Source: a virus. Taken from it: a DNA stretch of 25,723 nt. Where the stretch lies: positions 1 to 25,723 of the IMG/VR virus record IMGVR_UViG_3300028392_000267; one strand, given 5' to 3'. The first letter of the stretch is position 1. Every line of letters begins with the position of its first letter. The position numbers and the translations under genes are program-made. A model generated the notes under the pieces. It was not told where the DNA came from, searched no databases, and saw only the letters and a list, made by a program, of their open reading frames with translations. Of the stretch, positions 2,518 to 19,600 are shown in pieces.

Positions 2518-3861
2518 TTATGCAATCGTGTATCTAATAATAACAATGCCTGAACCACCAGCACCACCACTATATCCAGTGCCAGCGTTCCATCCACCAC
2601 CACCTCCACCTGAGCCAGTGTTAATAGTTGCTGCTCCACCATTTGCATTGGTCGCACCACCAGCGCCTGCACCGCCTGCTCCTGCACCGCCAGCGGATTC
2701 TGCTGGAGATGCACTGGCACCACCACCGCCACCACCAGCGTAATAATTACTTACACCAGTATTGGTTGCTGTTGCCCAAGATGAATATGTATTTAATCCC
2801 GCTCCACCAGTTCCGCTTGCGCTACCTGAACCAGTTCCTCCTACAGCGCCAGAGCCTCCTCCACCACCACCAAAACCTGACCCAGAAGATGAGCCTCCTG
2901 CAAAACCTTGCCCTGATGTTGCAGTACCGCCTGCACTTCCTGAAGAACCTCCACCACCTGAACCACCATTAGACCCAAGGGTTGAACCATAACCACCACC
3001 ACCGCCACCACCAACTGCTGCAGTTAATGAACCAATTTGTGAATTTGTTCCATTTGAACCAAGTGATGTAACTCCAGATGAGTTAATTCCTCCTGCACCA
3101 CCAGCGCCTACTGTGATTGTATAAGAAGATGTTATTAAAGAATTAGATGTTGAGTAATAAAGTCCACCTGCACCACCACCACCTGTATAAGCATAACCAC
3201 CACCACCGCCACCACCAGCAATGACAAGAGCATCACAAGCCAAAGTTGTTGCAGGTGTAAATGTTCCTGAAGTAAGGAACGTGTGATACCAGTAAGTACC
3301 ATCAGTAGTGATGTTTCCACCGCTAGCCTTTGGAGCGATAGCAGGTGTAGTGCCTACTGCTGCTAGGGCGTAGAGTGAGAAGGTGCTGTACTGGGCTAGG
3401 CTTGCTGATGCAGAATAATCTTGAAATGTAATAGAAGTGATTGCCGCACTTGATGACCACAATCCAGCCTCTAACATAGCATAAGCGGTTGTTGCGTTGT
3501 TCTCCATAACATTATCTATCGAAACAGATTTGTTGTTAGAAGATGTGTAATTTGGAACATATAGTTCAAAATTGCTAAATGTATTTGCTGTGGCATTTGC
3601 CGCATCTGTATCACCATAAATTGTTGTGTCGGTAAATGATGATGCCGATGCTCCGTTGCCTTGAATAAATCGTGCAGATTGATTAGTACCTACACCGTTA
3701 AATCTAACAGCCAAACCTGTAGATGTTGAGGCATTTGTGAATCTTGCCGATGCAACAACCTTCAAATCGGTATAGCCCGATTGTGGAATGTTGCTGAATG
3801 TGACAGATGCCGCTGATGCGTTAAGTTCGATGCGTTCTAAGAGTACATAATTCTGTGCCAT
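2518..3861 (-). CDS. Glycine-rich tail adhesin, second copy
   Basis: A 447-aa protein starting at ATG 3861, five bases after the upstream stop, with CAGGGG upstream. Residues 1-170 are a beta-rich domain (ITF-type strands, a FSNIP turn, ending STFSLYAL). Residues 181-215 are a linker with the pattern WYHTFLTSGTFTPATTLACD. From about 216 to 440 the chain is dominated by glycine runs broken by Ser, Ala, Thr and Tyr, and it closes with GGSGIVIIRYTIA. Glycine-rich C-terminal domains of this kind, packed as polyglycine II helices, form receptor-binding tips in phages such as Salmonella phage S16 (gp38). Host-surface binding is therefore the likely role. It is a paralogue of the gene just upstream (3866-5251), with all three parts at matching residue positions. 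The glycine tract cannot be compared reliably by eye, so specificity is unknown. Confidence 0.75.
   Translation of the reverse strand: MAQNYVLLERIELNASAASVTFSNIPQSGYTDLKVVASARFTNASTSTGLAVRFNGVGTNQSARFIQGNGASASSFTDTTIYGDTDAANATANTFSNFELYVPNYTSSNNKSVSIDNVMENNATTAYAMLEAGLWSSSAAITSITFQDYSASASLAQYSTFSLYALAAVGTTPAIAPKASGGNITTDGTYWYHTFLTSGTFTPATTLACDALVIAGGGGGGGYAYTGGGGAGGLYYSTSNSLITSSYTITVGAGGAGGINSSGVTSLGSNGTNSQIGSLTAAVGGGGGGGYGSTLGSNGGSGGGGSSGSAGGTATSGQGFAGGSSSGSGFGGGGGGSGAVGGTGSGSASGTGGAGLNTYSSWATATNTGVSNYYAGGGGGGASASPAESAGGAGAGGAGAGGATNANGGAATINTGSGGGGGGWNAGTGYSGGAGGSGIVIIRYTIA
2542..3219 (-). repeat. Low-complexity glycine-codon tract in adhesin copy 2
   Basis: On the plus strand this stretch is built of degenerate CCA/ACC/GCC triplets, read as Gly codons on the minus strand. 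Runs such as ccaccaccgccaccacca recur several times here and in the matching tract at 3887-4609. It encodes residues of about 215-440 of the 447-aa adhesin. Repeats shared with the upstream paralogue could allow recombination or slippage. Confidence 0.65.
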
Positions 3862-3865
3862 TTAA

Positions 3866-5251
3866 TTACCCCTGATATCTAATGATAACAATACCTGAAC
3901 CACCATTACCGCCAGCCTTGTTGTCTGTTCCTGAAGTTGCTGGACCACCACCGCCTCCGCCTCCGCCTGTGTTGGCAGTTGCGTTGTTACCTGCAGTTGA
4001 CACTGTTCCTGATGCAGCAGTTGAGCCTGCTCCACCACCAGCAGATGCTGTTCCACCTGTTGCTCCGCTTCGCAGACCACCACCACCACCGCCAGCAATC
4101 TTGCCGCTTACGCCAGAACTTGTAGTAGATAACCAACCGCTAAAGTCAATAGAGTTATATGTGCTTGCACCAGCACCACCATTACCACCAGTAGTGTCTG
4201 TTCCATCTGTGGCTGCGCCTCCAGCGCCACCACCACCACCGCCTGCAACTCTGTTAGCACCACCTAAGAATCCTGCACTACCCGCGTAACCTTCAACTGG
4301 TGAGTAAGAGCCAGCATTACCAGCACCGCCTGCAGAGCCTGCTCCACCACCAGAACCTGAACCACCTGATGCGCCAGCATTGAATCCACTGGTATATCCG
4401 CCACCAGTAACGCTTGTAGAATTAAAACTTGAATTTACCCCAGCAGTTCCTGCGCTTCCAGAAGAAGTCATTGCAGAACCACCTGCGCCCACAGTTGCTG
4501 TAAGAGCAGAAGAAATAGTTTGATTTGTGAATGCTCTAAGTCCACCCGCACCACCACCTGTGCCAGCATAGTTTTGTGCTAGACCTGCTCCACCGCCACC
4601 GCCACCTGCAACTATTAGATAGTCACAAGTTACTGGGACAGATGGAGTAAATGTTCCCGTTGATGTAAAGGTATGGTAAACATAACCAAAAGCATCGTAA
4701 CTAATAGTTCCACCAGTTGCCTTGGCTGTTCCAGGTACTGTCTGTGCCGTGATGCCATACAACGAAAATGTGGAGCCTGCAATATAATTATAAGATGGAC
4801 AAGTTAAAGTAATAGAAGTAATTGCTTGGGTGGCTGAACCAGTTGAGCCACGCCATAATCCTACTGTTGCTTGTGCAAAATAATCTGCGGCATTTGAGCG
4901 TGAAATTATAGTTTTATATGTTGTTGTATTTGCATAATTTTGAACTTGTATAATTGAATTTGTGGTATTTCCGCTTGTTGCGGTTGCAGAAGAACCATTG
5001 TAAATACGATTATCTGAAGAACCTCTACTGCTAGACGCAGCAGTTCCATTACCTAAAAGATAAGTCCAAGAATAATCAGAACCCGTATCACCATTAAAAG
5101 TTATATTTGTAGATTGATTTCCAGTAGCCGTATTAAAATTAGCAACAATAATTAAATCAGTATAAGTAGCAGGAATACTACTAAAAGTAATTGACGGTGT
5201 AGCGGTTCCGACTGTGACTTTATCTAGCGCAACATAAGTATTAGTAGCCAT
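3866..5251 (-). CDS. Glycine-rich tail adhesin, first copy
   Basis: A 461-aa protein starting at ATG 5251 behind GGGGTGA, two bases after the upstream stop. Residues 1-168 form a beta-rich domain (PSITFSSIPATYTDLIIVAN near residues 19-38, ending STFSLYGIT). The linker VYHTFTSTGTFTPSVPVTCD occupies residues 191-210, and the glycine-rich domain begins DYLIVAGGGGGG at about 210 and runs to residue 455. It ends GGSGIVIIRYQG. The N-terminal domain is shared with the 182-aa and 447-aa neighbours. The family context (glycine-rich phage tip adhesins) suggests receptor recognition, with the N-terminal domain probably docking to the fibre or tail. Having two complete adhesins side by side is notable. 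Which one acts, or whether both do, cannot be told from the sequence. Confidence 0.75.
   Translation of the reverse strand: MATNTYVALDKVTVGTATPSITFSSIPATYTDLIIVANFNTATGNQSTNITFNGDTGSDYSWTYLLGNGTAASSSRGSSDNRIYNGSSATATSGNTTNSIIQVQNYANTTTYKTIISRSNAADYFAQATVGLWRGSTGSATQAITSITLTCPSYNYIAGSTFSLYGITAQTVPGTAKATGGTISYDAFGYVYHTFTSTGTFTPSVPVTCDYLIVAGGGGGGAGLAQNYAGTGGGAGGLRAFTNQTISSALTATVGAGGSAMTSSGSAGTAGVNSSFNSTSVTGGGYTSGFNAGASGGSGSGGGAGSAGGAGNAGSYSPVEGYAGSAGFLGGANRVAGGGGGGAGGAATDGTDTTGGNGGAGASTYNSIDFSGWLSTTSSGVSGKIAGGGGGGLRSGATGGTASAGGGAGSTAASGTVSTAGNNATANTGGGGGGGGPATSGTDNKAGGNGGSGIVIIRYQG
3887..4609 (-). repeat. Low-complexity glycine-codon tract in adhesin copy 1
   Basis: This stretch has the same composition as the tract at 2542-3219: clustered CCA/CCG/GCC triplets on the plus strand, encoding the glycine-rich domain (about residues 215-455) of the 461-aa adhesin. 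The repeats are irregular in length and spacing, so this is coding low complexity and not a CRISPR or satellite array. Confidence 0.65.
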
Positions 5252-5252
5252 A

Positions 5253-5801
5253 TTATTTCACCCCGTATAGTGCAAAAGAAGTATAAGTATTAAAATTAGT
5301 GCTTCCTGTATTTGTAAATTCAATAGATGTAATTGCACTGGTATTAAGCCATAACCCTGATGTTAAACTTGAATAACCAGAACCATTTTGGTCAATGCCA
5401 AATGCTGAACGTACAGTTTTGTATTTATTAGTACTTGCATAATCTAAAATATCCATAACGAATACCCCTGGGTTTGCGGTTCCACCAGTATAGGCAATAT
5501 TATTGCCAGTAATTCCTGTTGCTTGTTCTGCATAAGCAGAAGTTCCTCCACCTTCTAGCAAATGGCGGGTATAATTTGCACCAGAATCTCCATTATAACG
5601 AACTCGAATTGCGTTAATTGCAGTTGGTGTTAATGTAAAACCACGAATCTGTAAATGTTTATATCCACTAGGAATACCAGCAAAAGTAATTGTTGATGTT
5701 GCAGAAGATAGCGTTACAGCAGCCAAAGAATCATAAGCACCAAAAGGTCCATCATAGAGATGCCCACTTATCTGTGAAGCCATAATTCCTAAGTTTGTCA
5801 T
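5253..5801 (-). CDS. Short tail protein carrying only the adhesin N-terminal domain
   Basis: A 182-aa protein. I chose ATG 5801 because it overlaps the upstream stop (TAATG), has GGAG ten bases upstream, and gives the start MTNLGIMASQISGHLYDG, which resembles the start of many phage fibre-associated proteins. A TTG nine codons earlier and an ATG at 5783 are alternatives. Residues from about 25 to the end match the N-terminal domain of the two glycine-rich adhesins: strand TITFAGIPSGY, an RYNGDSG turn, an ITSIEF strand and the end SFALYGVK. It lacks the glycine-rich part entirely. It may be a capping or attachment subunit, a truncated paralogue, or the ancestral single-domain form. There is no frameshift evidence downstream, since the next gene has its own start and ribosome site. 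Confidence 0.68.
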   Translation of the reverse strand: MTNLGIMASQISGHLYDGPFGAYDSLAAVTLSSATSTITFAGIPSGYKHLQIRGFTLTPTAINAIRVRYNGDSGANYTRHLLEGGGTSAYAEQATGITGNNIAYTGGTANPGVFVMDILDYASTNKYKTVRSAFGIDQNGSGYSSLTSGLWLNTSAITSIEFTNTGSTNFNTYTSFALYGVK

Positions 5802-7765
5802 TAAGCAAGGTCTCCAAAAATAATCCAAGAGTTGGCTGCAATTTTCTTACAGGTTGCACCAGAGTTGGCTACACGCAACTTAGGAGTTGCGCTGGTAGCA
5901 CCAGTCGAAATAACGGTTGTAGTTCCAGGAGTTACTGCACCAATGGTTGGTTGACCAGCACCAGTAATCCAGAAGACTGTAAACTCTGTACCAATTGCAA
6001 AGTTAAATGTAGCATCAGTAGGGATGTTGAACTGTACGCTTGCAGCGTTATTCATTGAGAACATATTGCCTTCATCACCAGATGCAAATGTGTATGCAGC
6101 GGTTTTGGCTGTGTATGTACAACCAATCTTAGGTGCTGTAATAACTGCACCTGTTGGGATTGTGACTGTACCTGTAAATGTAGGTGAGGCTAGTGGAGCC
6201 TTAGTTGCATCACTTGGCACAGCAGTAGCGTTAGTTAAGTTAATAGCAGACGGTGTGCCAAGGTTAGGTGTCACCAGCGTAGGGCTAGTAGCAAAGACTA
6301 ATGAACCTGAGCCAGTCTCATCAGAGATTACGCCAGCAAGTTCTGCAGATGTTGTAGCAGCAAGAGTAGATAACTTATCTGTTGTTACTACTAAAGTTTT
6401 AGTTGACGGAATAGATGTTCCATTGATAGATGTAGCAGTAGCCACACCAAGCACAGGGGTAACAAGGGTTGGGCTTGTATCTACTACAAACTTAGTTCCA
6501 GTACCTGTCTGAGAGGCTATAGTGGTTGCTGAGCCAACAGATGTGATAGGACCAGTAAGGTTGCTAGGAGCAATTGTTACACCGTCTACATAGCCCTTAG
6601 TGGCTGCATCTGTAGATGCTGTAGGGGTTCCCATACCAGTAATCTTGTTAGTGCCCATTGCAAGAGCACCGCTCATTGTTGAACCAGTTTTAAGGACTAC
6701 AGTATCTGAGAAATTTGCTGTGTTATTAAGAGCAGTTGCAATCTCAGCAAGAGTATCAAGTGTTGTGGGTGCGCCATTAACAAGGTTAGAAATTGCTGTA
6801 CCAACATATGCTGTAGTTGCAACTTGAGTAGTACTAGTACCAGCAGTAGCAGTTGGAGCAGTAGGTGTACCAGTAAGGGCTGGGCTAGCCAAAGGTGCAT
6901 ATGTGCTTGATGCTGTGGCTGTAGCCAATTTAGAATCAATTTGAGTCTGGATAGCGGAAGTAACTCCATCAAGGTATCCAAGTTCTGTAGCAGACACTGT
7001 TGACGATGGAGCAATTTTTGTCCAAGCAATTGCTGCAGCGGTGTTAATGTCACCATCTACAATTGTATCGTTGGCAATATCAGATGATGTAATAGTACCA
7101 GTCAAAGCCAATTTACTATAAGCAATGGCTGCAGATGCGGATATATCTCCATTAACTATAGTACCATCTGTAATCATAGCACTAGTAATAGAACTTGTTG
7201 CTCCAGTTAAAACAACTGATGTTCCGCCTTGTTGCAATGTGGTAGGATTGACTATACCACCTGTTATTGTAGCAGTACTAGTAACGGTGCCACTCAAAGT
7301 GGCGTTGTTAACTGTAGGAGTAGTCAGAGTTTTAAGAGTTAATGTTTGCGCTTTATCAGTAGCAACAATGTCACCTTCACCTGATGCAATACCGTGAAGC
7401 GTATGAACACTAGTTCCATCGTTGTAAGCAGTAGTAGCCTCAATGTGAAGGTTAGATTCACGAAGGTCACGACCAATAATCATATGTCGAATTACTGCAC
7501 CAGCAGAATGGTCTTGTGCTGCAGCACCAGCCATGTCAACGTCACGGGTTACTGTTAGATTGTTACCACTAACAACCGTAATATCTACAATTTCTTCAAG
7601 GGCTGTATCTGGGTCAATAACAACCGTAAAGGTTTGACCAGTGCTAACAGTTGCACCACCAAGCAATGTAGTTGCATTAGCAACTGGAATAATAGTTGCA
7701 CCAGAAGTTACCGCTGATGTCAAGGTTGTTTGCTGGGAACGTGAGGAGTATTTACGAGTTGTCAT
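5801..7765 (-). CDS. Repeat-built tail fibre protein
   Basis: A 654-aa protein starting at ATG 7765 behind AGGT. Residues about 12-94 are a compact beta domain (ATIIPVANATTLL, EEIVDITVVSGNNLTVTRD, QDHSAGAVIRH), probably the virion attachment end. Residues 150-560 are fibre repeats. Two ~30-residue copies (about 193-222 and 226-255) carry ITDGTIVNGDIS / IANDTIVDGDIN and AAIAYSKL / AAIAWTKI. Then come ELGYLDGVTSAIQTQIDSKL, a STDAATKGYVDG motif, and two copies of a TSPTLVTP.LG.....N motif. Residues 560-654 form a different globular end (YTFASGDEGNMFSMN, ending NSWIIFGDLA). These are standard motifs of trimeric phage fibres. Host contact may be made by the C-terminal domain or through the downstream adhesins. 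Confidence 0.85.
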   Translation of the reverse strand: MTTRKYSSRSQQTTLTSAVTSGATIIPVANATTLLGGATVSTGQTFTVVIDPDTALEEIVDITVVSGNNLTVTRDVDMAGAAAQDHSAGAVIRHMIIGRDLRESNLHIEATTAYNDGTSVHTLHGIASGEGDIVATDKAQTLTLKTLTTPTVNNATLSGTVTSTATITGGIVNPTTLQQGGTSVVLTGATSSITSAMITDGTIVNGDISASAAIAYSKLALTGTITSSDIANDTIVDGDINTAAAIAWTKIAPSSTVSATELGYLDGVTSAIQTQIDSKLATATASSTYAPLASPALTGTPTAPTATAGTSTTQVATTAYVGTAISNLVNGAPTTLDTLAEIATALNNTANFSDTVVLKTGSTMSGALAMGTNKITGMGTPTASTDAATKGYVDGVTIAPSNLTGPITSVGSATTIASQTGTGTKFVVDTSPTLVTPVLGVATATSINGTSIPSTKTLVVTTDKLSTLAATTSAELAGVISDETGSGSLVFATSPTLVTPNLGTPSAINLTNATAVPSDATKAPLASPTFTGTVTIPTGAVITAPKIGCTYTAKTAAYTFASGDEGNMFSMNNAASVQFNIPTDATFNFAIGTEFTVFWITGAGQPTIGAVTPGTTTVISTGATSATPKLRVANSGATCKKIAANSWIIFGDLA

Positions 7766-7773
7766 CTATGTAC

Positions 7774-8667
7774 CTATCGGCTGTAGTGGACGCGGGTTGG
7801 GTATTGAATCTTCTGCTTAAGCGATTCTTCTTCAAGACGATTTGTATAGAGTGCTTGCAGTTGCTTTGTTACGTTTGTTCCTGTGCCGTATGGACGTTTA
7901 GTGTCCAGTTCGTCTGCACCAGGAGCAGTGATAGAAATACGTGCAGGGTCTACATAAGATGACAGACGCCATGCTGCACCGTAAACAATTACGTCTTTCA
8001 TAGATGTAGGTAAACCTGTAGTTGTTTCAAAATCATCTGTATTGTTAGTCATGTTAGTAGGCAGGTGTGCATACACAATGTTAATGGTACGTCCAGGAAG
8101 GACGTTATCATAAATAGATACTGTGCGACCAGTAGAAAATGCAGGTGCATAAGCAATAGGGTCCCAACGCCATTGGCGAATAGGTAGCCATTCTTTAGTT
8201 GGTCCAACTGACTGCCATGCCATAGATAGAATCTGAATAGCATCTGCAGGTACTGAGTATGTGGTACGGCTAGCAAGGAATGATACGGCTGTTGAGCCAG
8301 TAGCAAATACCTTTGGGTATACCGCATTGACTGTATCGTTGATTGCACGCTTAACTGCAGCACGTGGATAGGTAGGAGTAATAACTACCTTTGCGTTAGC
8401 AGCATGAGAAGTAGCAGTAGTGCCATTGTATCCGCGCCCAAAAGGAGCAATAGTAACAGTGTTTGCTTGACGGTCATAGGAATCCACCCACATCATTTCA
8501 TCATCAATTTCAATAATGCTCTTACCAATGTTATCGGTAGATGCTACGTTAAGTACTAGGTCAGAACTAGTAGCAGCAGTAAGAAGATAAGTAACACGGT
8601 CTTGACGGTAAGTAAAACCAGACAAGTCAAGTTGTACATCATCTACTAGCGAATTAAGTGTTGTCAT
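7774..8667 (-). CDS. Putative head-tail adaptor or tail tubular protein
   Basis: A 297-aa protein starting at ATG 8667, which overlaps the upstream stop (TAATG) and has AGGTGG upstream; an in-frame TTG at 8733 is less likely. Residues 1-22 (LNSLVDDVQLDLSGFTYRQD) are followed by an inserted beta domain (about 25-98) with IIEIDDEMMWVDSYD and FGRGYNGTTATSHA. Residues 100-297 hold a mixed domain: a helix AVKRAINDTVNAVYPKVF, strands TTYSVPADAIQILSMAW, a helix MKDVIVYGAAWRLSSYVD and a charged C-terminal helix LYTNRLEEESLKQKIQY. The two helical segments around a beta core resemble phage adaptor or gp11-like tail tubular proteins. Its place just before the fibre genes fits. The assignment is by layout, not by a diagnostic motif. 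Confidence 0.55.
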   Translation of the reverse strand: MTTLNSLVDDVQLDLSGFTYRQDRVTYLLTAATSSDLVLNVASTDNIGKSIIEIDDEMMWVDSYDRQANTVTIAPFGRGYNGTTATSHAANAKVVITPTYPRAAVKRAINDTVNAVYPKVFATGSTAVSFLASRTTYSVPADAIQILSMAWQSVGPTKEWLPIRQWRWDPIAYAPAFSTGRTVSIYDNVLPGRTINIVYAHLPTNMTNNTDDFETTTGLPTSMKDVIVYGAAWRLSSYVDPARISITAPGADELDTKRPYGTGTNVTKQLQALYTNRLEEESLKQKIQYPTRVHYSR

Positions 8668-8948
8668 TAGGAAGCCACCTGTCGTAGTGCGGTAACCGCA
8701 TCTAATCCTGTTGTACCTGCAAGTGCATTGCAAACTCCATTAATACCTAGATATAACTTAGGGTCTGTTATGCCGTACTTTTTATTAAGTGCACCCTGTA
8801 CTGCCATGGCTGGGGATACACCAGCCCATGCACTAGCAGCACCTTGGTCTGCAAGGTATGCAGTCTTGGCTGGGTAAGACCCACCGCCATTAGCAAGGCG
8901 ATTTAGTTCATCAGTAAGTGTTGAACCTGCGCGACCATATATTGCCAT
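8667..8948 (-). CDS. Small unknown virion-region protein
   Basis: A 93-aa protein coupled at both ends by TAATG overlaps. It begins MAIYGRAGSTLTDELNRLAN and has an Ala/Gly-rich helical middle (AYLADQGAASAWAGVSPAM, then ALNKKYGI). The end (LGINGVCNALAGTTGLDAVT) includes a single cysteine. I do not recognise the family. The segment NGVCNALAGTTGLDA looks like a packed helix-turn-helix of the non-DNA-binding kind. It is immediately upstream of the probable adaptor, so a head-completion or connector role is possible. Confidence 0.6.
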   Translation of the reverse strand: MAIYGRAGSTLTDELNRLANGGGSYPAKTAYLADQGAASAWAGVSPAMAVQGALNKKYGITDPKLYLGINGVCNALAGTTGLDAVTALRQVAS

Positions 8949-9940
8949 TATTGACCTGCCTTTTCTGCGCGCTTGGCTGCTTCTGTAATTTCACGTTGAC
9001 GCAATACTTTGCGTTGATTGCGGATAGCACCCTTGAGTGCAGCAGTTTTAGAACCTGGCTTACTGCCAACAGTACGAAGAAGCACAGTTGTTTTAGTAGG
9101 TTTGCCTGGTTTAACTGTAGCCTTAAGGCGTGATTTAGGATTTAATGCTTCATCAACACTACGGTCTGCTGTGTTTTGCTCAGGGTCACGTTCATATGAT
9201 TTAGATTTGCTTGATGCTTTTTCTACGCCTTGTTCAACACGTGCATCAATTGACTTTAATAGACGAGCATCTTTATCAATAACATCTGCTTCATTAACTT
9301 TAAGTTCTAAGCCACCACGTTTAGATTTAATTTTAGGACGAGCAGGATTTACTTTAACAGTAAGCGCTTCTCTAAGCCTATCACGTTGTGCTTTTAATCT
9401 ATCTGATACAACATCAAATGATTTTTTAGGTGTTGTTCTTGTAACAGTAACAGCACTACGTTTGTTAAGTGTTTTTTTAACTGGTCTAGTAACTGTATCT
9501 TTTGCTGGAGTACCAGTCTTAGTTGTTACGCGAACATCTGGTTTAGGCGCACTACCACGTAATGCTTTGTTTCCACCTTCACGGCGAGCCTTTGGTCCCG
9601 CTGATTCTTCTGCTACACGACGAGCAGCAACTCTGGAAACTTTGTTTTCAGCGGTAACCTTCTCCGCTACAATCTGTGCGCCTTTGCGGTCAGCAATAAT
9701 GCGAGCGCCAGTGCGCTTTGCAAAGTTTACTACAGCAGGAGCAATTTTTTCTGCACCTTCTGCTGCAACCTTAACACCTCTAGCCTTTGGTCCACCAATG
9801 CCTTCAACAATAGATGACCCTACAATTCCAGGAACAGCAACTGCAAGTTTTTTTAACTTAGAACTAAATGATGGCTTAGCGTTTTCTTTACCACTAAGAC
9901 CACTGGTACGAGTACTACCACCATCTGTTGTTGGTTTCAT
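8948..9940 (-). CDS. Large Lys/Arg-rich basic protein
   Basis: A 330-aa protein starting at ATG 9940 with a TAATG overlap. By my count it has 45 Lys and 32 Arg (23 percent) and few aromatic residues, and much of it looks disordered. One hydrophobic stretch (KLAVAVPGIVGSSIVEGIGG, about residues 31-50) could be a short helix or membrane-contacting segment. The rest is a string of basic Ala/Thr/Pro segments with two helix-prone parts (RLKAQRDRLREALTVKV near 181-197 and RNQRKVLRQREITEAAKRAE near 307-326). The composition resembles nucleic-acid-binding, histone-H1-like tails. It is the largest member of a cluster of basic proteins between the capsid and tail genes. DNA condensation inside the head is one possible role, and I see no catalytic motif. 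Confidence 0.68.
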   Translation of the reverse strand: MKPTTDGGSTRTSGLSGKENAKPSFSSKLKKLAVAVPGIVGSSIVEGIGGPKARGVKVAAEGAEKIAPAVVNFAKRTGARIIADRKGAQIVAEKVTAENKVSRVAARRVAEESAGPKARREGGNKALRGSAPKPDVRVTTKTGTPAKDTVTRPVKKTLNKRSAVTVTRTTPKKSFDVVSDRLKAQRDRLREALTVKVNPARPKIKSKRGGLELKVNEADVIDKDARLLKSIDARVEQGVEKASSKSKSYERDPEQNTADRSVDEALNPKSRLKATVKPGKPTKTTVLLRTVGSKPGSKTAALKGAIRNQRKVLRQREITEAAKRAEKAGQ

Positions 9941-10104
9941 TACTTGCCTTTCTTTTGTGCGGCTCTCATATTGTCTACAAGATTGGGATACTTTCTGCCA
10001 GCCTTTTTAGCAGCAGCCTTGGCTGATGCTTTAGCAGCAGGTGTTAATGGTGTTGACTTCTTCTTTGGGTTAGGTGTTTCCCAAACTTTCTTATGTACTA
10101 CCAC
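9940..10104 (-). CDS. 54-aa lysine-rich miniprotein
   Basis: This is a short reading frame starting at GTG (10104-10102). An in-frame stop at 10113-10111 leaves GTG as the only good start, and GCGGA lies about 12 bases upstream. It overlaps the end of the 85-aa gene by seven bases and is coupled to the 330-aa gene by TAATG. Thirteen of its 54 residues are Lys. It starts VVVHKKVWETPNPKKK, has an Ala/Lys helix (AAKASAKAAAKKAGRKYPN) and ends RAAQKKGK. The composition, full use of the gap and coupled ends argue that it is real. It belongs with the other small basic proteins here. Function unknown; a DNA-binding or packaging-associated role is only inferred from charge. Confidence 0.62.
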   Translation of the reverse strand: MVVHKKVWETPNPKKKSTPLTPAAKASAKAAAKKAGRKYPNLVDNMRAAQKKGK

Positions 10105-10355
10105 TTGACTTTATCCGCCCAGTAAGCAGCAGACATCTTGCCTTTAGCAATGTTTTTAGCATGACGGGCTTTGAATGAAGCCTGACGTGCAGTAGGCTTG
10201 TGGTCCCCTGTTACTCCCTGTTGACCAAAACGGATAGTCTTGACCGCGCTACCTTCTTTAGCAACAACAACGTGTGATTTAGTTGGATGGCTTGGTGTAC
10301 GCTTAGGCTTATTAAAACCTGATACTCCTGCCCGCTTTAGTCTAGGGTCTAACAT
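10098..10355 (-). CDS. Small basic protein with C-terminal RHAKNIAKGK...AYWADKVKW motif
   Basis: An 85-aa protein starting at ATG 10355 directly after the upstream stop (TAAATG). It contains 13 Lys, 6 Arg and several His. The N-terminal half is Pro/Lys-rich and probably disordered. The C-terminal 26 residues (SFKARHAKNIAKGKMSAAYW, then ADKVKW) look folded, with two Trp and a basic helix. I recall similar endings on small proteins of environmental phages, without a known role. It overlaps the 54-aa gene by seven bases. The tail motif could bind DNA or a capsid protein. Confidence 0.65.
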   Translation of the reverse strand: MLDPRLKRAGVSGFNKPKRTPSHPTKSHVVVAKEGSAVKTIRFGQQGVTGDHKPTARQASFKARHAKNIAKGKMSAAYWADKVKW

Positions 10356-10517
10356 TTACTTACCTTTAACCTTCTTAAGATTTGGATTTGCTTTCTTTGC
10401 TGCTAGGCTTGCTTTGCGTGTAGATGATGCAAGGATTGCTCCAGCAGACTTCATTGATACACCTGACTTTTTAGCAATTGATTTTTGTGCTTTCTTAAAA
10501 CCCATATGCTCTGTCAT
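10356..10517 (-). CDS. 53-aa lysine-rich miniprotein
   Basis: I chose ATG 10517, which overlaps the upstream stop (TAATG), over an in-frame TTG at 10541. The protein has 13 Lys in 53 residues. It starts MTEHMGFKKAQKSIAKKSG, has a central helix (VSMKSAGAILASSTRKASLA) and ends AKKANPNLKKVKGK. The pattern FKKAQKSIAKKSG..KSAGAILASSTRKAS is reminiscent of short helical DNA-binding proteins, but there is no recognised domain. It is one of a run of tiny basic genes after the capsid gene. Function unknown. Confidence 0.62.
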   Translation of the reverse strand: MTEHMGFKKAQKSIAKKSGVSMKSAGAILASSTRKASLAAKKANPNLKKVKGK

Positions 10518-10708
10518 TAGTTTGTGTATCCGTTGTTCCAAGATTTGTTGCCATACTTCTTAGCAAAAGCCTTGTCATTGCCAACCATTGGACGCTTAGC
10601 GCCCTGTGGTGGTAGTGGTGTAGCCTTTGGTGTAGCAGCAGGTTGTGCACCTGATGACTTACGTACGGCTGGTGTTGGGATTCCCGCTGTAGGTAGACGA
10701 TGCGGCAT
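10517..10708 (-). CDS. Small Pro/Lys-rich protein
   Basis: A 63-aa protein starting at ATG 10708. The first 40 residues are Pro/Ala/Lys-rich (MPHRLPTAGIPTPAVRKSSG, then a PKATPLPPQGAKRP segment) and probably disordered. The end (DKAFAKKYGNKSWNNGYTN) has aromatic and Asn residues and may be a short binding element. It is coupled to the 53-aa gene through TAATG and follows the 79-aa gene by two bases. The upstream ribosome site is weak, which suggests translation depends on the gene before it. I do not recognise the family. Confidence 0.58.
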   Translation of the reverse strand: MPHRLPTAGIPTPAVRKSSGAQPAATPKATPLPPQGAKRPMVGNDKAFAKKYGNKSWNNGYTN

Positions 10709-10710
10709 AA

Positions 10711-10950
10711 TTAAATCTTACGTCCGCCGCCAGTTGGCTGGGTGTAGATACCCTGGATTAGTTGTGATGGACCATTTGCAGTTGAACCCTGTGCTGAGCG
10801 TGGTGGAACCACGTTAGCAGTTGCAGGTGCAACTCCGCCCATAAAGTCTGCCTTGTTAACAGATGATACATCTGTTGCTGCCTTGCGTACCTTTGCTGGA
10901 ATAACTAATCCAGCAGCGGTGTCATTTGATGTCATGTATTCGTTAGCCAT
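10711..10950 (-). CDS. Small Ala/Ser/Thr-rich protein
   Basis: A 79-aa protein starting at ATG 10950, immediately after the stop of the 50-aa gene. The first half (AAGLVIPAKVRKAATDVSSV) may fold as a strand and helix. The second half is Pro/Gly/Thr-rich (ATANVVPPRSAQGSTANGPS) and ends QGIYTQPTGGGRKI. It is less basic than its neighbours. No known domain is seen. The tight packing and intact frame support it as a gene. Confidence 0.58.
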   Translation of the reverse strand: MANEYMTSNDTAAGLVIPAKVRKAATDVSSVNKADFMGGVAPATANVVPPRSAQGSTANGPSQLIQGIYTQPTGGGRKI

Positions 10951-11103
10951 TTACATTACCTTGTTTCTTTCTGATGGTGGTGGTGGTACGTCAAAGCCCT
11001 TGATAATATCTGCGCTCTGACCTTCGGCAACGCGTACGCCTGCCGTAATTACTGTTCTCATTTGATTGCCATTGGCATCTGTGCAGCCACATTCAACGCA
11101 CAT
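10951..11103 (-). CDS. 50-aa cysteine miniprotein starting MCVECGC
   Basis: This reading frame starts at ATG 11103, two bases after the upstream stop (11106), and ends exactly where the 79-aa gene begins. It fills the gap completely. The N-terminus MCVECGCTDANGN places three cysteines at residues 2, 5 and 7 (CxxCxC). A short strand segment (MRTVITAGVRVAEGQ) follows, and then four prolines at residues 40-43 and the end SERNKVM. Three closely spaced cysteines suggest a metal site completed by another chain or by dimerisation. I recall short phage proteins beginning MC.(E)CGC, with no known function. It was found by reading the 153-base gap. Confidence 0.6.
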   Translation of the reverse strand: MCVECGCTDANGNQMRTVITAGVRVAEGQSADIIKGFDVPPPPSERNKVM

Positions 11104-11105
11104 AA

Positions 11106-11306
11106 TTATTTGCCCTTCTTCATTTTCATAACCTTGTTACGAAGGGACTTATCCATGCGAGCATCAGACTTAGCAGATGGCTTTTTAGCATCCATTGCCT
11201 TATCAGCCTTCTTAAACGCAGACTTCTGCGCTGGCTTCATGCCCTTCATCATCTTTGCATCTTGCTTCATGTCCGCCTTCTTGGACATAGGTAACATTGC
11301 TGCCAT
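11106..11306 (-). CDS. 66-aa Lys/Met-rich basic protein
   Basis: A 66-aa protein starting at ATG 11306 by TAATG overlap. By my count 19 residues are Lys (29 percent) and 11 are Met, with no Cys, Trp, Tyr or His. It reads as one amphipathic chain of Lys/Ala/Met/Asp blocks (SKKADMKQDAKMMKGMKPAQ, then KKADKAMDAKKPSAKSD) ending NKVMKMKKGK. This composition is extreme and resembles histone-like or nucleic-acid-compacting peptides. It is the most basic gene of the cluster at 8948-11306. A role in neutralising packaged DNA or in scaffolding is inference. Confidence 0.65.
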   Translation of the reverse strand: MAAMLPMSKKADMKQDAKMMKGMKPAQKSAFKKADKAMDAKKPSAKSDARMDKSLRNKVMKMKKGK

Positions 11307-11749
11307 TATATTGCTCCCACTTCTTTCATTACTTCGATTGTTTGTTTAGTGATGTGTTCTGTTGCTGGCATCTTGCTAGCGTTGTAAGGCTTGTTAAGAG
11401 TCTCACTTGCTTCAAGAGCACTTCTGATTGCCTTGGTAGATGTACCCGCTGGCTGAACTCCCTGTGACTTTGCATCTCTGTAAAGTTGAAGTTCTTTGTC
11501 CCACTTCTTCTGTGTTGTACCACTAGCCACAATGTTGCCTGCGGCATCACCAGTTGCTAGTTGTAATCCTTTGGCTTTGCAACCAAAACAATCATCATCA
11601 CACGCAGTGTGGTCAATCTCAATATCTTCATACTCAAATGGTTTATCTGATGATGCATTACATAATACGCAGCCATACTTACTGGCTATGAAGTTATGGT
11701 CTGCGCTAAATCCCCATTCAAGCACCTTACTAATATGTTGGTGCTCCAT
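11306..11749 (-). CDS. Cysteine-cluster protein, likely zinc-binding, actinophage-like
   Basis: A 147-aa protein starting at ATG 11749 by TAATG overlap. Within residues 20-65 there are two cysteine pairs: YGCVLCNAS and, after an IEIDHTACDDDCFGCKAKGL stretch, CDDDCFGC. An added His makes a zinc-knuckle-like site likely. The spacing resembles HNH-associated treble clefs, but I see no catalytic HNH triad, so nuclease activity is not claimed. The C-terminal half is a charged helical segment (TTQKKWDKELQLYRDAKSQG, then VQPAGTSTKAI). The CFGCK plus LYR.A.SQG.QPAGT pattern matches small genes I recall downstream of capsid genes in actinobacteriophages. Function unknown. Confidence 0.68.
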   Translation of the reverse strand: MEHQHISKVLEWGFSADHNFIASKYGCVLCNASSDKPFEYEDIEIDHTACDDDCFGCKAKGLQLATGDAAGNIVASGTTQKKWDKELQLYRDAKSQGVQPAGTSTKAIRSALEASETLNKPYNASKMPATEHITKQTIEVMKEVGAI

Positions 11750-12076: not shown

Positions 12077-13243
12077 TTAGTAGTTGATTGAAGAAGATGT
12101 CTCTACACGGTAGAGTGCTTCTTGACGGTAAATAGCGTGACCAAGTACGCCGTACCATCCGAGTGGACGGTGACGCATCAACTTGTCAACAACTGGTCCG
12201 ATAACAACGTGTGGTTCTTCAGCCACTGCTTCAGCAAGTGCTTGCTGTCCAGCAAAGTAGGTGTTGAATACATTTGTTTCGTGTGTGAAAGTGATAGATG
12301 CACCTGATGTAACCTGTGTGGTGATAGCAATATCAATTGTTACTGTTCCAGTTCCAATTGCTGTTACGTTTGCACCTGTTGGTACGTTAGTACCAGCAAC
12401 AAGGTCACCAATAACAATGCCTGATGTAGAAGTAAGAGACAATGATGTTGCTCCTACGTTACCTGAAGCAGTTGTTGTTGTTGTAGATGTTGTCTTACCA
12501 GCACCCTTTAGGTCGTTGTAGATACGTGGTGATTCAACATAGAATGCACCTTCGTATGTACCAATTTCGCCAGCCCAGATTGCATCATTAGCCTGGTATT
12601 CGTGTGGCTGACGCCATGAACCTACACCAGTCTCAGCACGAAGGTCGTGTGATACTTCAGGGTGGATACCAGCCCAGTAAAGTGAACCCTTACGTGGGAT
12701 AGCCTTGTTAGCACGCAACTTAGCAGTTGTCTTACGAGCAAGTGCTGAAGTGAATGTGTCTGATGATGTAAGTGTTGCTGTAGATGTACGTGTTCCACCG
12801 TAAAGAACGTTGTCTCCAACGCGTAGTACGTTCTGAGCAACGTCATCAATAGAATCTGCCATGTTGAACGCAATGATGTTAGCAACTGCAGGGTCTACGT
12901 CAGCAAGGCTGAAGAGTTCCAATGCACGTGTAACGAGTACTGCGTTACCATACTCAGCAAGAGTAATGGTTGTGTATGTTGGTGTAGCAAGTGCTACAGC
13001 ATCTGGGTCAGTCTGCTCTGTAAGAGTAGTAATCTGCTTTGTAAGGTCTACATAACGCTGCAAGACAACAGATGAACCAGGGATGCTTTGACGCGCAGGA
13101 GTCTTATCGGCTACTGAGCGAATGAGTGGTTGAGCACGTAGTGCGAACTCGATGAGGCGGTCATACGCCTTCTGTACGAGACCAGCACCACCAACTGTAC
13201 CGCCTAGAGAAGCGGAACCTGTGGTTGTATATGCATTAGCCAT
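12077..13243 (-). CDS. Major capsid protein, N4-gp56 family, with an inserted beta domain
   Basis: A 388-aa protein starting at ATG 13243 behind a near-consensus Shine-Dalgarno site. Residues 1-250 follow the N4-gp56 capsid pattern (HK97-type fold): VQKAYDRLIEFALRAQPLIR, TTITLAEYGNAVLVTRALEL, then VAQNVLRVGDNVLYGG, KLRANKAIPRKGSLYWAGIH and EIGTYEGAFYVESPR. Residues 251-321 are a Thr/Ser/Gly-rich insertion (STTTTTASGNVGATSLSLTS, then GDLVAGTNVPTGANVTAIG), and the fold resumes at ETNVFNTYFAGQQALAEAVA with a GPVVDKLMRHRPLGWYGVLG ending. The insert resembles beta-sandwich domains known on other phage capsids and would be surface exposed. It follows the scaffold-like gene, the usual order. Confidence 0.9.
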   Translation of the reverse strand: MANAYTTTGSASLGGTVGGAGLVQKAYDRLIEFALRAQPLIRSVADKTPARQSIPGSSVVLQRYVDLTKQITTLTEQTDPDAVALATPTYTTITLAEYGNAVLVTRALELFSLADVDPAVANIIAFNMADSIDDVAQNVLRVGDNVLYGGTRTSTATLTSSDTFTSALARKTTAKLRANKAIPRKGSLYWAGIHPEVSHDLRAETGVGSWRQPHEYQANDAIWAGEIGTYEGAFYVESPRIYNDLKGAGKTTSTTTTTASGNVGATSLSLTSTSGIVIGDLVAGTNVPTGANVTAIGTGTVTIDIAITTQVTSGASITFTHETNVFNTYFAGQQALAEAVAEEPHVVIGPVVDKLMRHRPLGWYGVLGHAIYRQEALYRVETSSSINY

Positions 13244-15120: not shown

Positions 15121-16655
15121 TAACCAAGCCCCCATGTCTGCGCTATATTACTAATAAAGTCTGCAACTGTTTGATGTGCTTCTGGACTTTTACCAAAGTC
15201 AGGGTGAGACTGCAATGCACGGTTAAAATCTGTAATAGATTTACCACTAGCAATTGCATCTGAAATATCTTTATCTTTAAGTGAATCAGTTACAACAACA
15301 CCAAGTTTATTTTGTTTGGTATACTTGTACTGGTCAGCAATATCTTTGTATGTTCCACCTGCTTGGAAGTGGTCTTTAAGTTGTGGGTGCAAGGTAATAG
15401 CGGTTTGACGAATACGCTCTTCTTGCTTTTTAAGATAATCTTGCTGTCCTAAGCCACTGGCTACATACTTAAGTGCATCAGCAGATGACATCTCTACGCC
15501 ATATGAAGCAGCATACTGCTGCAAGGTAGCAATATCTGTAGCCGCACGGCTACCAGAAGTAAGCAACTTCTCTACATCTGTACCAGCCAAAGACTTCTTT
15601 GCTACGTTGGCAGCAAGAAGTACATGGTCATTTGTACCAAGTTCACTACCAGTAGTAGTACCACTAGATACTGTACGTATAGCCTTTTGCTCTAATGCAT
15701 GCAACTGTGTGTAGTAGGCTTCTTCGTCTTGTGGTGTAGATGGACGACCAATAAGGTCGGTCAAATAGTTGTCAAGTTCTTTCTTAGCATCACCACGTGT
15801 GGTAATTGTTTTGTACTGTGTAGGTGTACCTGCTCCACCGAGTGAAGAGGTAGATGCTAGGTATTGGTTTGTATCAACAGACTTAGTTCCTGGTGAGTAA
15901 AGAGCATCAGATACAAGTTTGGTTGTGTACTTTGTAAGTAATGTGTCAAGACCACCAACCCAAGTACCATCTGCTATTTGACTTGATTTAATGTAATGTT
16001 TATTAACAAGTGTATTTTGAAGTGATGCTAATGCTTGTGGTGTTGAGTAGTTCTTAAGAAAAGCAGCGCGTGCCTCAGACATGCTCTTATATTCAACTGG
16101 CTGTACATTGCCTTTGCCATCTGAAGTAGATACAAATACAGGAGCAACATTACCGTGGGTAACACGACCTGTTGCATCTATTGCATATTCAGACCAGTTA
16201 ATTCCTGGTGCTGCTTTATCTACAACCTTGCCTGAGGCGTCCACCGTTTTAGCACCAAGGTCTTTATTACCAGTAAGAGTAGCCACATCAGCACCAGGTG
16301 CTGCATTAAAAATCTTTACTACACTATCATTAGTTTTTGTATAGGTATCTGAAAGAGATTTATATTGAGCAACTGTTCTATCAAACTCAGCCTGCTCTGT
16401 GCTTGTTGGTACATCACCGCGTGATACGCGTGTAGCATATGCACGTAGCGTACCCTCAAGTGTAAGCATTTCGCTTTCAAGAGACTTAGCATAGTTTATC
16501 TGTGGCTCAGCCTGAAGGCGAGCCTTGTTAATAGTATCTTTGTTTTTCTTAGCAAGAGCAGCAGCCTTTGCTGCAGCATCAGCGTCAGCAATTGCTTTTG
16601 CACGTGCTGCTTTAGCATCGGCAATTAAGGTATCAACATTAAACTTATCAGCCAT
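15120..16655 (-). CDS. Putative internal virion protein, second gene of the giant cassette
   Basis: A 511-aa protein, coupled at both ends by TAATG. The N-terminal 90 residues are a highly Ala/Lys/Asp-rich coiled coil (IADAKAARAKAIADADAAAK), typical of rod-like virion proteins. The middle (about 130-330) is mixed. The C-terminal third has the motif LQQYAASYGVEMSSADALKY, followed by an RIRQTAITLHPQLKDHFQAG segment and GTYKDIADQYKYTKQNKLGV. I recall an A..YG.....A / hP.l...hq.G.t..dia..Y pattern in uncharacterised actinophage structural proteins. There is no peptidoglycan-hydrolase motif. It ends FISNIAQTWGLG, close to a WGLG in the next protein. I suggest a helical internal or ejection protein. 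Confidence 0.62.
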   Translation of the reverse strand: MADKFNVDTLIADAKAARAKAIADADAAAKAAALAKKNKDTINKARLQAEPQINYAKSLESEMLTLEGTLRAYATRVSRGDVPTSTEQAEFDRTVAQYKSLSDTYTKTNDSVVKIFNAAPGADVATLTGNKDLGAKTVDASGKVVDKAAPGINWSEYAIDATGRVTHGNVAPVFVSTSDGKGNVQPVEYKSMSEARAAFLKNYSTPQALASLQNTLVNKHYIKSSQIADGTWVGGLDTLLTKYTTKLVSDALYSPGTKSVDTNQYLASTSSLGGAGTPTQYKTITTRGDAKKELDNYLTDLIGRPSTPQDEEAYYTQLHALEQKAIRTVSSGTTTGSELGTNDHVLLAANVAKKSLAGTDVEKLLTSGSRAATDIATLQQYAASYGVEMSSADALKYVASGLGQQDYLKKQEERIRQTAITLHPQLKDHFQAGGTYKDIADQYKYTKQNKLGVVVTDSLKDKDISDAIASGKSITDFNRALQSHPDFGKSPEAHQTVADFISNIAQTWGLG

Positions 16656-19600
16656 TATTTAATCGCCTTAAATGTATAGTAGGAATCACGTGAATAAAAT
16701 GAAAGCATTGACTTAAAGATGGCACGATTTGCCTCAGTAACATATAAGTCACCAAGTGATAAGTCTTTCAATGCTGCCTCAATCTGTTGTCTACGCTCTG
16801 CTTTAATACTTACGCCACCATCACTAAGGTTCTTTAGTGCTGGGTCTGTTGACATTGATACAAAGTCGCGTATCAATTTAACTGCAATAGCCATACGCTT
16901 GCGTGTTTCTGGTGCAACTGGTGTACTAGGGTCATTGATAATTTGCTCAACACTGTTAAGCATTATGCCTTCTTTGCCAATGTTATTACCCTGCCCAATA
17001 AGGGCTGGTTTTAACAATGGGTTGGCAGCCACAAGAGATGCTCTAGCAGAAGTAGCCTCATTGATAATGTTGGCTCTAGCCATCTGGTCAGATACTGTAT
17101 TGAGTTGTTCTTTTTCAATACGTGCAATGTCATAGTATGATTGCTTATCCTGTGCAACCATTAAGTCGTTATAGTAACTTTCAAGGCTCTTACTCTTAAC
17201 TAGTCCTGCTGCTTGAATAAAGTTATATGTAGCAGCATTAAACTTACCTGCCTGCGGCGCAAAGATATAGGCTGCTTCACCATAGGTATTGATAAGTTTT
17301 TCATTACCTAATGCCCAACCCTTAAGTGCATCTGTGTTCTTAATAAGAACTCTAGTCTGTTTATCCTCACGGGATACAGTGTAGATAAGTTTACCTGGGT
17401 GCTTGCCTGTATAAGTTGCTAGTGCTAACTCATATGGGTCTTGAATATCCCCATTGTTTTTAGCGGTAATACCATTAAGAATGTCAAAGAACTCACTACG
17501 CATACTAGTAATACCAGTATCTTTAACGTAGTTAGGTACACCCTTAGACTCCATAGTAGTAGGAGTTACAGGGGATATAAGCCCTAGAAAATTGCGGAGT
17601 GCAATAACATTGTGCGCAGTAATGCGAATGTTCTTGAGATAGTCAGACTTCTCTTGGTCAGTAGCATTAGGGTTAAGGTGTATACCCTGTGATGCGTTAT
17701 AAGCAATAGCCTGTTGTGCAGCAGTAGCCTCTTGACGAGACTTTTCTGTTGGGTCAATAATTGCCCACAAACGTTGTAGTGATGCAGGCACTGTAGCCTT
17801 AACAACGTCTACGTTATCGCCAACGTTTCCTAGTGCAAAGGTATCAATACCTTCTGCTAGTTGTTTAGAAGGACCACCTATATACTTGCCAATGAATGGT
17901 ATATTGCCAGGAACTGTACCTAGAATATCCTTAAATGCTACTACGCTAAGCCCAGCAATAGGACCAGAAAGTGTAGGAAGTCCAGCATCCTGCTGGAATG
18001 ATGGGTTCATCATACGCAACTTAAGAGTAAAATCATTAAATAACGGTTGACCGTATCCACCCTTACCAGTAATGGTACGCATTGCACTATCAGTTGCACG
18101 GAATAAAACATTATCCATAGGCATAACCAAATATGGTTCACCGTTCTGGTCTTTATGGAACATACCGCTAGCATCTAGCCCTACGTGGGCTAGTCGAATA
18201 CGGTATAGCGCACGTGGTGTTACTTCTTTCATGCGATAAATACGACGGTAAAAATCTTCTGTTGCACGGTAGTAACGACCTACAGTACGTCCGCTAAATG
18301 CAAAGTTAGAGCGAATAGATGGGTTATCTGCAAACTTAAGTACTGTATCTGCAGCCTCACGGGTAGCCAATTCAGTAAATCGTTTCTCAGCAACTGCCTT
18401 ACACTCTGCCATAACCTTCTCATTGCTAAAGCGAGCAGTTGGAAGTTCCCATTTACCAGCACGTTCCATATATAAGTTGTTTGCAAACTCACGTTCAAAG
18501 CCTGCATATTCTTTACGCAACTTAACATAGGTAATCATGACTGCTGGTTGACGGAAGATACCAGTAACCTGGCGGTCCATCATGTTCATTGCGTCTTGAC
18601 CAAAGCGTGCAATTACATTCTCAGCATCAAAGTCACCAAATGCAATTTCAGTATTAATCTTACCAGCAATACGGTAACCAGAGGATGCATCAGTAAATAC
18701 GTCTAATGGAATCATAGCAATAGCCTGATTGTAAGTAGGATAGAAGTTCTGGTAATCAGATGACCTACGTAGTTTGCTCATATTAGACTCAACAAGATTA
18801 AACAATGTTTCATTGAACTTGTTAGAATCGCCGTGGAATGTTTCATACATGTCAACTAATTGACGAGCAATTTGCTGTTCAGCAATGTCAGCCCTAATAG
18901 CGCCTTGCTGTACCTTGCGAGCATTAAATGATGATTGTTCTAAAAATCTATTAACGGTAATTGGGTTGTCAATTACCCACATACCAGTAGCAGAGTTCTT
19001 TTTAAACCCAATTTTTTCCATACCATAGTTAATAGCACCACGCATAGTAGAAGTTGTGCCGTCTAGCATCTTCTCACCTGGGCGTAGCCCACCATACTTA
19101 AAAAATATTTCTGCTGGGTTAAGGATAGTTTCTCCATCAACTTTAAACTTATTACCAACAAACTGTTTGTATAGTTTTTCGTATTGAGCAAGAGCAATTT
19201 CTTGATTAGTAAGACTATCTGTACTAATAATACGTTTACCGTTACGCATCTTGACACCAATAGACTCAAGTGCACGGTCAAGCATAGATGGGTCAATCAT
19301 TGAGGCAGCAACTTCTTCGCCCCACTTACCTGATATGGCAGAGTGAGCAACAAGAGAAGCAGCCATTGAGTTCAATGCATCTGGGCTGTGCTTCCAAGCC
19401 TGCATAAGTAAGACTGCATCTTTTTCATTGACGTATCCACCGTAAAGTTTTTGAATATGGTCAGCAACTGCTTCACGTTTTTGCAAACTAGATAGCAAAC
19501 CAACGTCTGTTCCTAGTTCTTTTGCTTTATCTTGCAATAATTCTTCACGCTTGACTAAACTAAGTGCATCTTCAGGTGAAATAACAATACGTTTACCACC

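Follow-up and report, generated by a model that had tools for sequence, protein, structure and literature searches.

Next to the major capsid protein (MCP) gene of a lake-water virus of bacteria lies an array of six genes for small, strongly basic proteins, which are under strong selection, occupy a late, capsid-adjacent position, are exchanged gene for gene among relatives and recur in unrelated aquatic phages. The array was studied in a 25,723-base fragment of virus record IMGVR_UViG_3300028392_000267 (positions 1 to 25,723), and this whole stretch of DNA is called the window below. Our preferred reading, held with somewhat less than even confidence, is that the array encodes late small cationic DNA-binding proteins that are packaged with the genome, as internal or core-like proteins. 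DNA binding, packaging and condensation by these proteins are what we infer; that they condense the packaged DNA, as a sequence-only reading of this stretch had proposed, is plausible. Downstream of the MCP gene come two small genes and then the cluster of basic-protein genes:

12077-13243, minus strand: MCP (phrog_1357, E 1e-76), outside the array and used as synteny anchor
11106-11306, minus strand: k66, 66 amino acids, Lys/Met/Ala-rich, 29% Lys, net charge +15
10951-11103, minus strand: c50, 50 amino acids, Cys-containing (MCVECGC...), net -1, inside the array
10711-10950, minus strand: g79, 79 amino acids, near neutral, net +3, inside the array
10517-10708, minus strand: p63, 63 amino acids, Pro/Lys-rich, net +9
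10356-10517, minus strand: k53, 53 amino acids, 25% Lys, net +13, with a conserved AGAILAS-TRKAS core; it precedes the exchange slot, and its listed TTG start is unnecessary, an ATG start yielding MTEHMGF...
10098-10355, minus strand: b85, slot 1, 85 amino acids, net +15, phrog_7595, Tlr6F/DUF5754-like
9940-10104, minus strand: k54, slot 2, 54 amino acids, 24% Lys, net +13, phrog_34011
8948-9940, minus strand: b330, slot 3, 330 amino acids, 23% Lys+Arg, net +43
8667-8948, minus strand: g93, a conserved gene (phrog_27452) that bounds the array on its 3′ side

The places and compositions that the sequence-only reading gave for the six basic proteins were all confirmed, as was the location of the cluster after the capsid genes; its list of members had omitted the two non-basic genes inside the stretch, c50 and g79. 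A 147-amino-acid protein with paired Cys motifs (CVLC, CFGC) is encoded adjacent to the array (11306-11749, minus strand), and it and c50 are possible small zinc-binding proteins.

Comparison of each array protein by blastp with the open reading frames (ORFs) of the capsid relatives' loci detected k66 and k53 in almost every locus that spans their position, b85 in some two thirds and k54 in about half. Pairwise Nei-Gojobori estimates, made for pairs with a proportion of synonymous differences (pS) of 0.2-0.6, gave ratios of nonsynonymous to synonymous change (dN/dS) of 0.052 for k54, 0.074 for b85, 0.134 for k53 and 0.155 for k66, as well as ~0.09 for DUF6321, the alternative to b85 in slot 1. 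Among the neighbouring genes the ratios were 0.168 (capsid), 0.150 (g297), 0.201 (scaffold-like) and 0.263 (g79). As k66, k53, b85 and k54 are syntenic in the majority of some 60 capsid relatives and have dN/dS values of 0.05-0.16, they are real genes under purifying selection, and some evolve more slowly than the capsid protein. Two of the three conditions that would have refuted the sequence-only reading, absence from close relatives and absence of purifying selection, are thus not seen for the set. The 330-amino-acid protein, which had been counted as a member, does not belong to a conserved series: b330 has a clear relative only in locus L008 (58%), and slot 3 elsewhere holds different basic proteins of 232-411 amino acids or is empty. 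The Pro/Lys-rich p63 evolves fast (dN/dS ~0.5, from 8 pairs only), and other basic proteins take its place in many relatives. The uncultured phage ct2KA10 retains b85 at 93% identity; its other small basic genes differ.

The net charges of the six proteins range from +9 to +43, and none of these was matched by any of the ~2,900-6,600 segments of equal length taken from the other 20 window proteins, which average -1.1 per 100 amino acids. The share of AAG among the Lys codons and the third positions outside Lys codons are near those of the remaining window, and the dN/dS values show selection on the proteins; the lysine richness of the array is therefore not an effect of codon composition. Could it be a side effect of A-rich coding together with Shine-Dalgarno sequences in overlapping gene ends, without any shared function? 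Neighbouring array genes touch or overlap (TAATG), their coding strand is rich in A, and in several genes the Shine-Dalgarno sequence of the next gene falls within the last codons, so that -KGK ends coincide with AAGG motifs preceding the next start. GK-type tails occur in 103 of 208 unique basic cluster proteins, about half, versus 17 of 90 non-basic ones. This overlap accounts for the recurrent -KGK ends, that is, for the last few residues only and not for the remaining sequence, and the selection on k66, k53, b85 and k54, the ordinary third positions and the recurrence of the same charge in unrelated gene families make this explanation barely credible. The C-terminal -KGK was also considered as a shared signal and was set aside, since the Shine-Dalgarno sequence of the following, overlapping gene largely explains it; ORFs of the same length on the opposite strand (e.g., 9018-10010, plus strand) were set aside as frame mirrors.

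The array interval was read gene by gene. In 57 loci sampled by capsid similarity, slot 1, which follows k53, is occupied by b85 in 39 loci and by DUF6321 in 16, by both in none and by neither in 2 (Fisher p 3e-12, relatedness ignored). On a tree of MCP and g297 the state of this slot changed at least seven times, and four to five of the changes are forced by well supported branches. Slot 2 holds k54 in some loci and the pair phrog_17747 + phrog_14910 in others; the two alternatives never co-occur (0/57), both are missing from 26 loci, and the capsid and g297 tree gives 14 changes. In the sister loci L018 and L023, which differ in the array, the alignment runs to the end of k53 and resumes at the start of g93, and the loci L011 and L014 have a similar breakpoint at the first edge, the k53 end. 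Between the window and L014 the alignment extends through b85 and starts again at g93, so that k54 and b330 together form a clean insertion or loss. The array is thus modular, its genes being exchanged as units with breakpoints at gene ends. In 59 relatives the charges of the interval add up to a strongly positive total (+32 to +154, median +67) while single genes are swapped, which fits a bulk electrostatic role.

Variable modular content and precise exchange would also suit packaged effectors that are ejected and act on the nucleic acids or defences of the new host, like IPI of T4, with the swaps as traces of an arms race; the internal proteins of T-even phages are a diverse, co-evolving set aimed at restriction enzymes (PMC3012670). 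Proteins engaged in an arms race usually evolve fast, whereas b85, k54 and DUF6321 rank among the most slowly evolving genes compared, and b85 is common, at 55-93% identity, to phages of different bacterial phyla, which disfavours a host-specific target. Extreme charge would also be unnecessary for such a role, and we consider it unlikely.

Two members of the array belong to known families: b85 to phrog_7595 (E 8e-37, residues 3-85 on 6-96 of 96) and k54 to phrog_34011 (E 3e-20, residues 4-52 on 4-52 of 55). No Pfam, PHROG or NCBIfam family matched k66, and the NCBIfam search of the array proteins returned nothing. Residues 30-65 of b85 align to positions 15-49 of the 49-position model of Tlr6F/DUF5754 (PF19058) with 19.8 bits (E 8.5e-4), below the Pfam gathering cut-off of 27.4 bits, and a scan of 18 records with this model found none above the cut-off, the best match (2.9e-4) being on the b85 gene of ct2KA10. 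The six weak matches fall on b85-like genes, and three control genomes also match below the cut-off. In sum, b85 resembles Tlr6F/DUF5754, likewise a small viral protein whose profile falls on the b85 gene in several b85 phages, and, as its scores stay under the cut-off, family membership is not established. Tlr6F was described in 2015 as conserved in polinton-like viruses, virophages and giant viruses as well as in some phages; it is a small widespread viral protein without an assigned role (PMC4642659, PMC12220804).

The alternative protein of slot 1, found outside the window, is a DUF6321 protein (PF19846; phrog_4689; e.g., T4-GC119 of cyanophages), with 66 and 76 bits at a gathering cut-off of 28.5 bits. 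It shares with b85 the slot, the charge, the size class and the strength of selection, but there is no significant similarity between the profiles: hhalign gave a probability of 2.5-3.7% and aligned only the RRxSFxAR stretch, and the DUF6321 profile touches three b85 proteins below the cut-off. Unlike b85, DUF6321 in T4-like cyanophages mostly comes as the tail part of longer proteins. An AlphaFold2 model of DUF6321 from a shallow alignment was mostly helical (predicted local distance difference test score, pLDDT, 86), and no PDB fold matched it. In GenBank the DUF6321 proteins of MinM2 (L260 5001-5246) and of Pelagibacter phage Greip (H151) carry the label 'RecA-like recombination protein', which looks like a misannotation.

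Roseobacter, Puniceispirillum, cyanobacterial and Vibrio phages have relatives of b85 at about 55-80% identity, and weaker relatives occur in Pelagibacter phages and others; among viral contigs, at least 595 stretches carry a relative. Roseophage SIO1 (L087, NC_002519.1 24065-24277) has an open b85-like gene that is unannotated in its record. There are also b85-like proteins, of 48-52% identity, on contigs of metagenome-assembled genomes (MAGs) of Dependentiae/Babeliales (L401-L403), which are possibly phages of these bacteria. DUF6321 occurs in 480-494 phage records, chiefly of cyanophages and pelagiphages. Whole-record scans found DUF6321 above the cut-off in 0 of 44 b85-bearing phage records and b85 in 0 of 45 DUF6321-bearing ones, in records that had been selected for carrying one gene or the other and that include many fragments; the scans do not account for two Roseobacter records with a DUF6321 match.

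Phages unrelated to the window lineage, with Pelagibacter, Roseobacter, Methylophilales or cyanobacteria as hosts, also carry these families in runs of small basic genes. Such runs occur in pelagiphages HTVC033P and HTVC034P, Methylophilales phage MEP402 and roseophage CRP-9, and HTVC033P has seven such genes in a row, each of net +15 to +22. Comparison of k53 and k54 with isolated phages gave few matches, and in MinM2 and Pag-Yong1 k54 directly adjoins DUF6321. Because the families recur in runs of basic genes, the window carries one version of a recurrent kit. In pelagiphages and a Methylophilales phage (L406-L410, L257) proteins of 34-49 amino acids with 35-47% Lys+Arg, which matched no family, are encoded next to the DUF6321 gene. 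The statement of the sequence-only reading that no described phage system has this exact series holds for the series as such in the literature searched. It does not extend to the parts, since two member families are known (phrog_7595, of the Tlr6F-like b85, and phrog_34011, of k54), as are families of the stand-ins in related loci (DUF6321, phrog_17747 and phrog_14910), and since comparable runs exist in pelagiphages and roseophages. That literature yielded no description of the kit, of its pair of exclusive slots or of its recurrence, and no functional study of these families, which are known orphans.

Genes of the array families lie on the late strand in the annotated phages examined that have a clear late strand. 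Their neighbours are head genes in KBS-S-2A, MED4-184, HTVC142P, S-RIP2, Syn19, P-TIM40 and S-CREM2, where they are placed between the minor head protein and the MCP, between scaffold and capsid, or, in T4-like cyanophages, between gp16 and gp17. In S-CREM2, gp137 (ORF137, 490 amino acids) ends in DUF6321 (E 3.5e-10), and published proteomics of purified virions recovered gp137 (4 unique peptides, 4.1% coverage; PMC10665884 Table 3), the only experimental link of these families to virions. Different parts of the profile phrog_220, annotated as minor head protein and DNA pilot, match different proteins: positions 513-615 correspond to b85-like proteins, positions 983-1065 to a head morphogenesis protein of the Mu-F type. 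This suggests that a b85-like protein is fused with a minor head protein in this family.

A late, head-proximal place and overlapping genes would also be expected of late intracellular DNA- or RNA-binding proteins that remain unpackaged and compact or protect the phage DNA pools, aid the terminase or the ribosome, or serve as assembly cofactors for acidic proteins. The array has an acidic neighbour, a 169-amino-acid scaffold-like protein of net -13, and a profile links a b85-like protein to the DNA methyltransferase family phrog_1530. We regard such a role as rather doubtful, as the presence of a DUF6321-tailed protein in S-CREM2 virions speaks against it.

If the array proteins are packaged DNA-binding proteins, they would form a set of small, positively charged proteins made late in infection, hold on to DNA by chains that are rich in lysine and probably flexible, and enter the head along with the genome, where their lysines would neutralise phosphates and thus ease packaging or keep the DNA ordered until release. 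The set would be interchangeable, the conserved part being a bundle of positive charge with one slot-1 protein (Tlr6F-like or DUF6321) and often one slot-2 element (k54 or the phrog_17747/14910 pair). By arithmetic, one copy of each of the six proteins carries +108, and neutralising 10% of a 40-kb genome would take ~74 copies of each, or 5.3 MDa of protein for 26 MDa of DNA. One near parallel is the set of internal proteins of T4 (IPI-IPIII), which is also variable and whose lysines touch the DNA phosphates inside the head (PMC3012670). The array proteins may work in a like way, but do not qualify as members of it: k66, p63, k53, b85 and k54 share no N-terminal targeting sequence and contain no (L/I)xE site of the T4 gp21 type (b330 contains three), and no search that we made found homology to the T4 proteins. 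In the chlorovirus PBCV-1, too, basic proteins are found on the packaged viral DNA and have been proposed to neutralise it (PMC3281028), but the proteins named are larger and belong to a virus of eukaryotes.

Several observations weigh against packaged DNA-binding proteins. In the established view tailed phages neutralise their DNA by cations and polyamines, not by proteins (PMC3281028). We found no virion proteomics for the window lineage or for any b85-type protein, and the S-CREM2 peptides may all lie outside DUF6321. The array is absent from Streptomyces phage WRightOn, of the nearest isolated-phage lineage, Beephvirinae. Structural comparison gave little: the AlphaFold2 model of b85 (54-row alignment) was unusable at a pLDDT of 55, and a sequence search of solved structures returned insignificant matches only (plastid ribosomal uL24 and the putative baseplate component ORF59). 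That b85, k54 and DUF6321 have such low dN/dS values suggests contacts of a specific kind, more than bulk charge alone would call for, and under the packaging model these proteins would, given their strong conservation, have specific partners besides.

Finally, in P12053L, CRP-9, HTVC033P, HTVC034P, Lederberg, MinM2 and S-EIV1 the families adjoin lysis genes (spanin, endolysin, amidase, peptidase, holin or lysozyme), as they might if they served late in lysis or envelope disruption as cationic proteins that bind anionic envelope polymers. The head-gene surroundings in the window lineage, T4-like cyanophages and T7-like pelagiphages argue against this, and inspection of the sequences by eye revealed no hydrophobic membrane segment or signal peptide; a lysis role seems very improbable.

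A broader form of packaging by cationic proteins, which we put forward as no better than an unlikely conjecture, is that a protein-based nucleoid exists in many tailed phages of aquatic habitats, built from a swappable packaged cationic kit in which either a Tlr6F-like or a DUF6321 protein serves as organiser. If true, it would contradict the view that small cations and polyamines alone neutralise tailed-phage DNA and would provide a first function for the Tlr6F family, which is common to giant viruses and virophages. The array itself would challenge the assumption that the heads of tailed phages do without basic DNA-binding proteins. The sharing of slot 1 ties two orphan families, Tlr6F-like and DUF6321, to late or virion functions, and as a Tlr6F-like protein in a defined capsid-adjacent slot is repeatedly replaced by DUF6321, the two can be tested as functional equivalents.

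The long genes of the window lie nearly all on the minus strand and include, besides the phrog_1357 capsid protein, a terminase (minus strand, cut by the right edge of the window), a portal, a 1718-amino-acid protein and tail-fibre-like proteins. The MCP is 72-100% identical to those of 80 IMG/VR loci, 66% identical to that of ct2KA10 and about 51-56% to those of the best Streptomyces phages. An actinobacterial freshwater host is plausible, because b85 is found at 94% on a contig in a MAG labelled Actinomycetota. The 1718-amino-acid protein (16655-21811, minus strand), which lies between the portal and capsid genes and has no Pfam or significant PHROG match, is by its place a candidate internal or ejection protein. 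Two tandem proteins of 447 and 461 amino acids (2518-5251, minus strand) resemble each other in their N-terminal domains, contain long runs of poly-Gly/Ala and are probably fibre tips. In WRightOn (L002 9349-11369) more than 20 annotated tRNA genes lie just upstream of the capsid genes.

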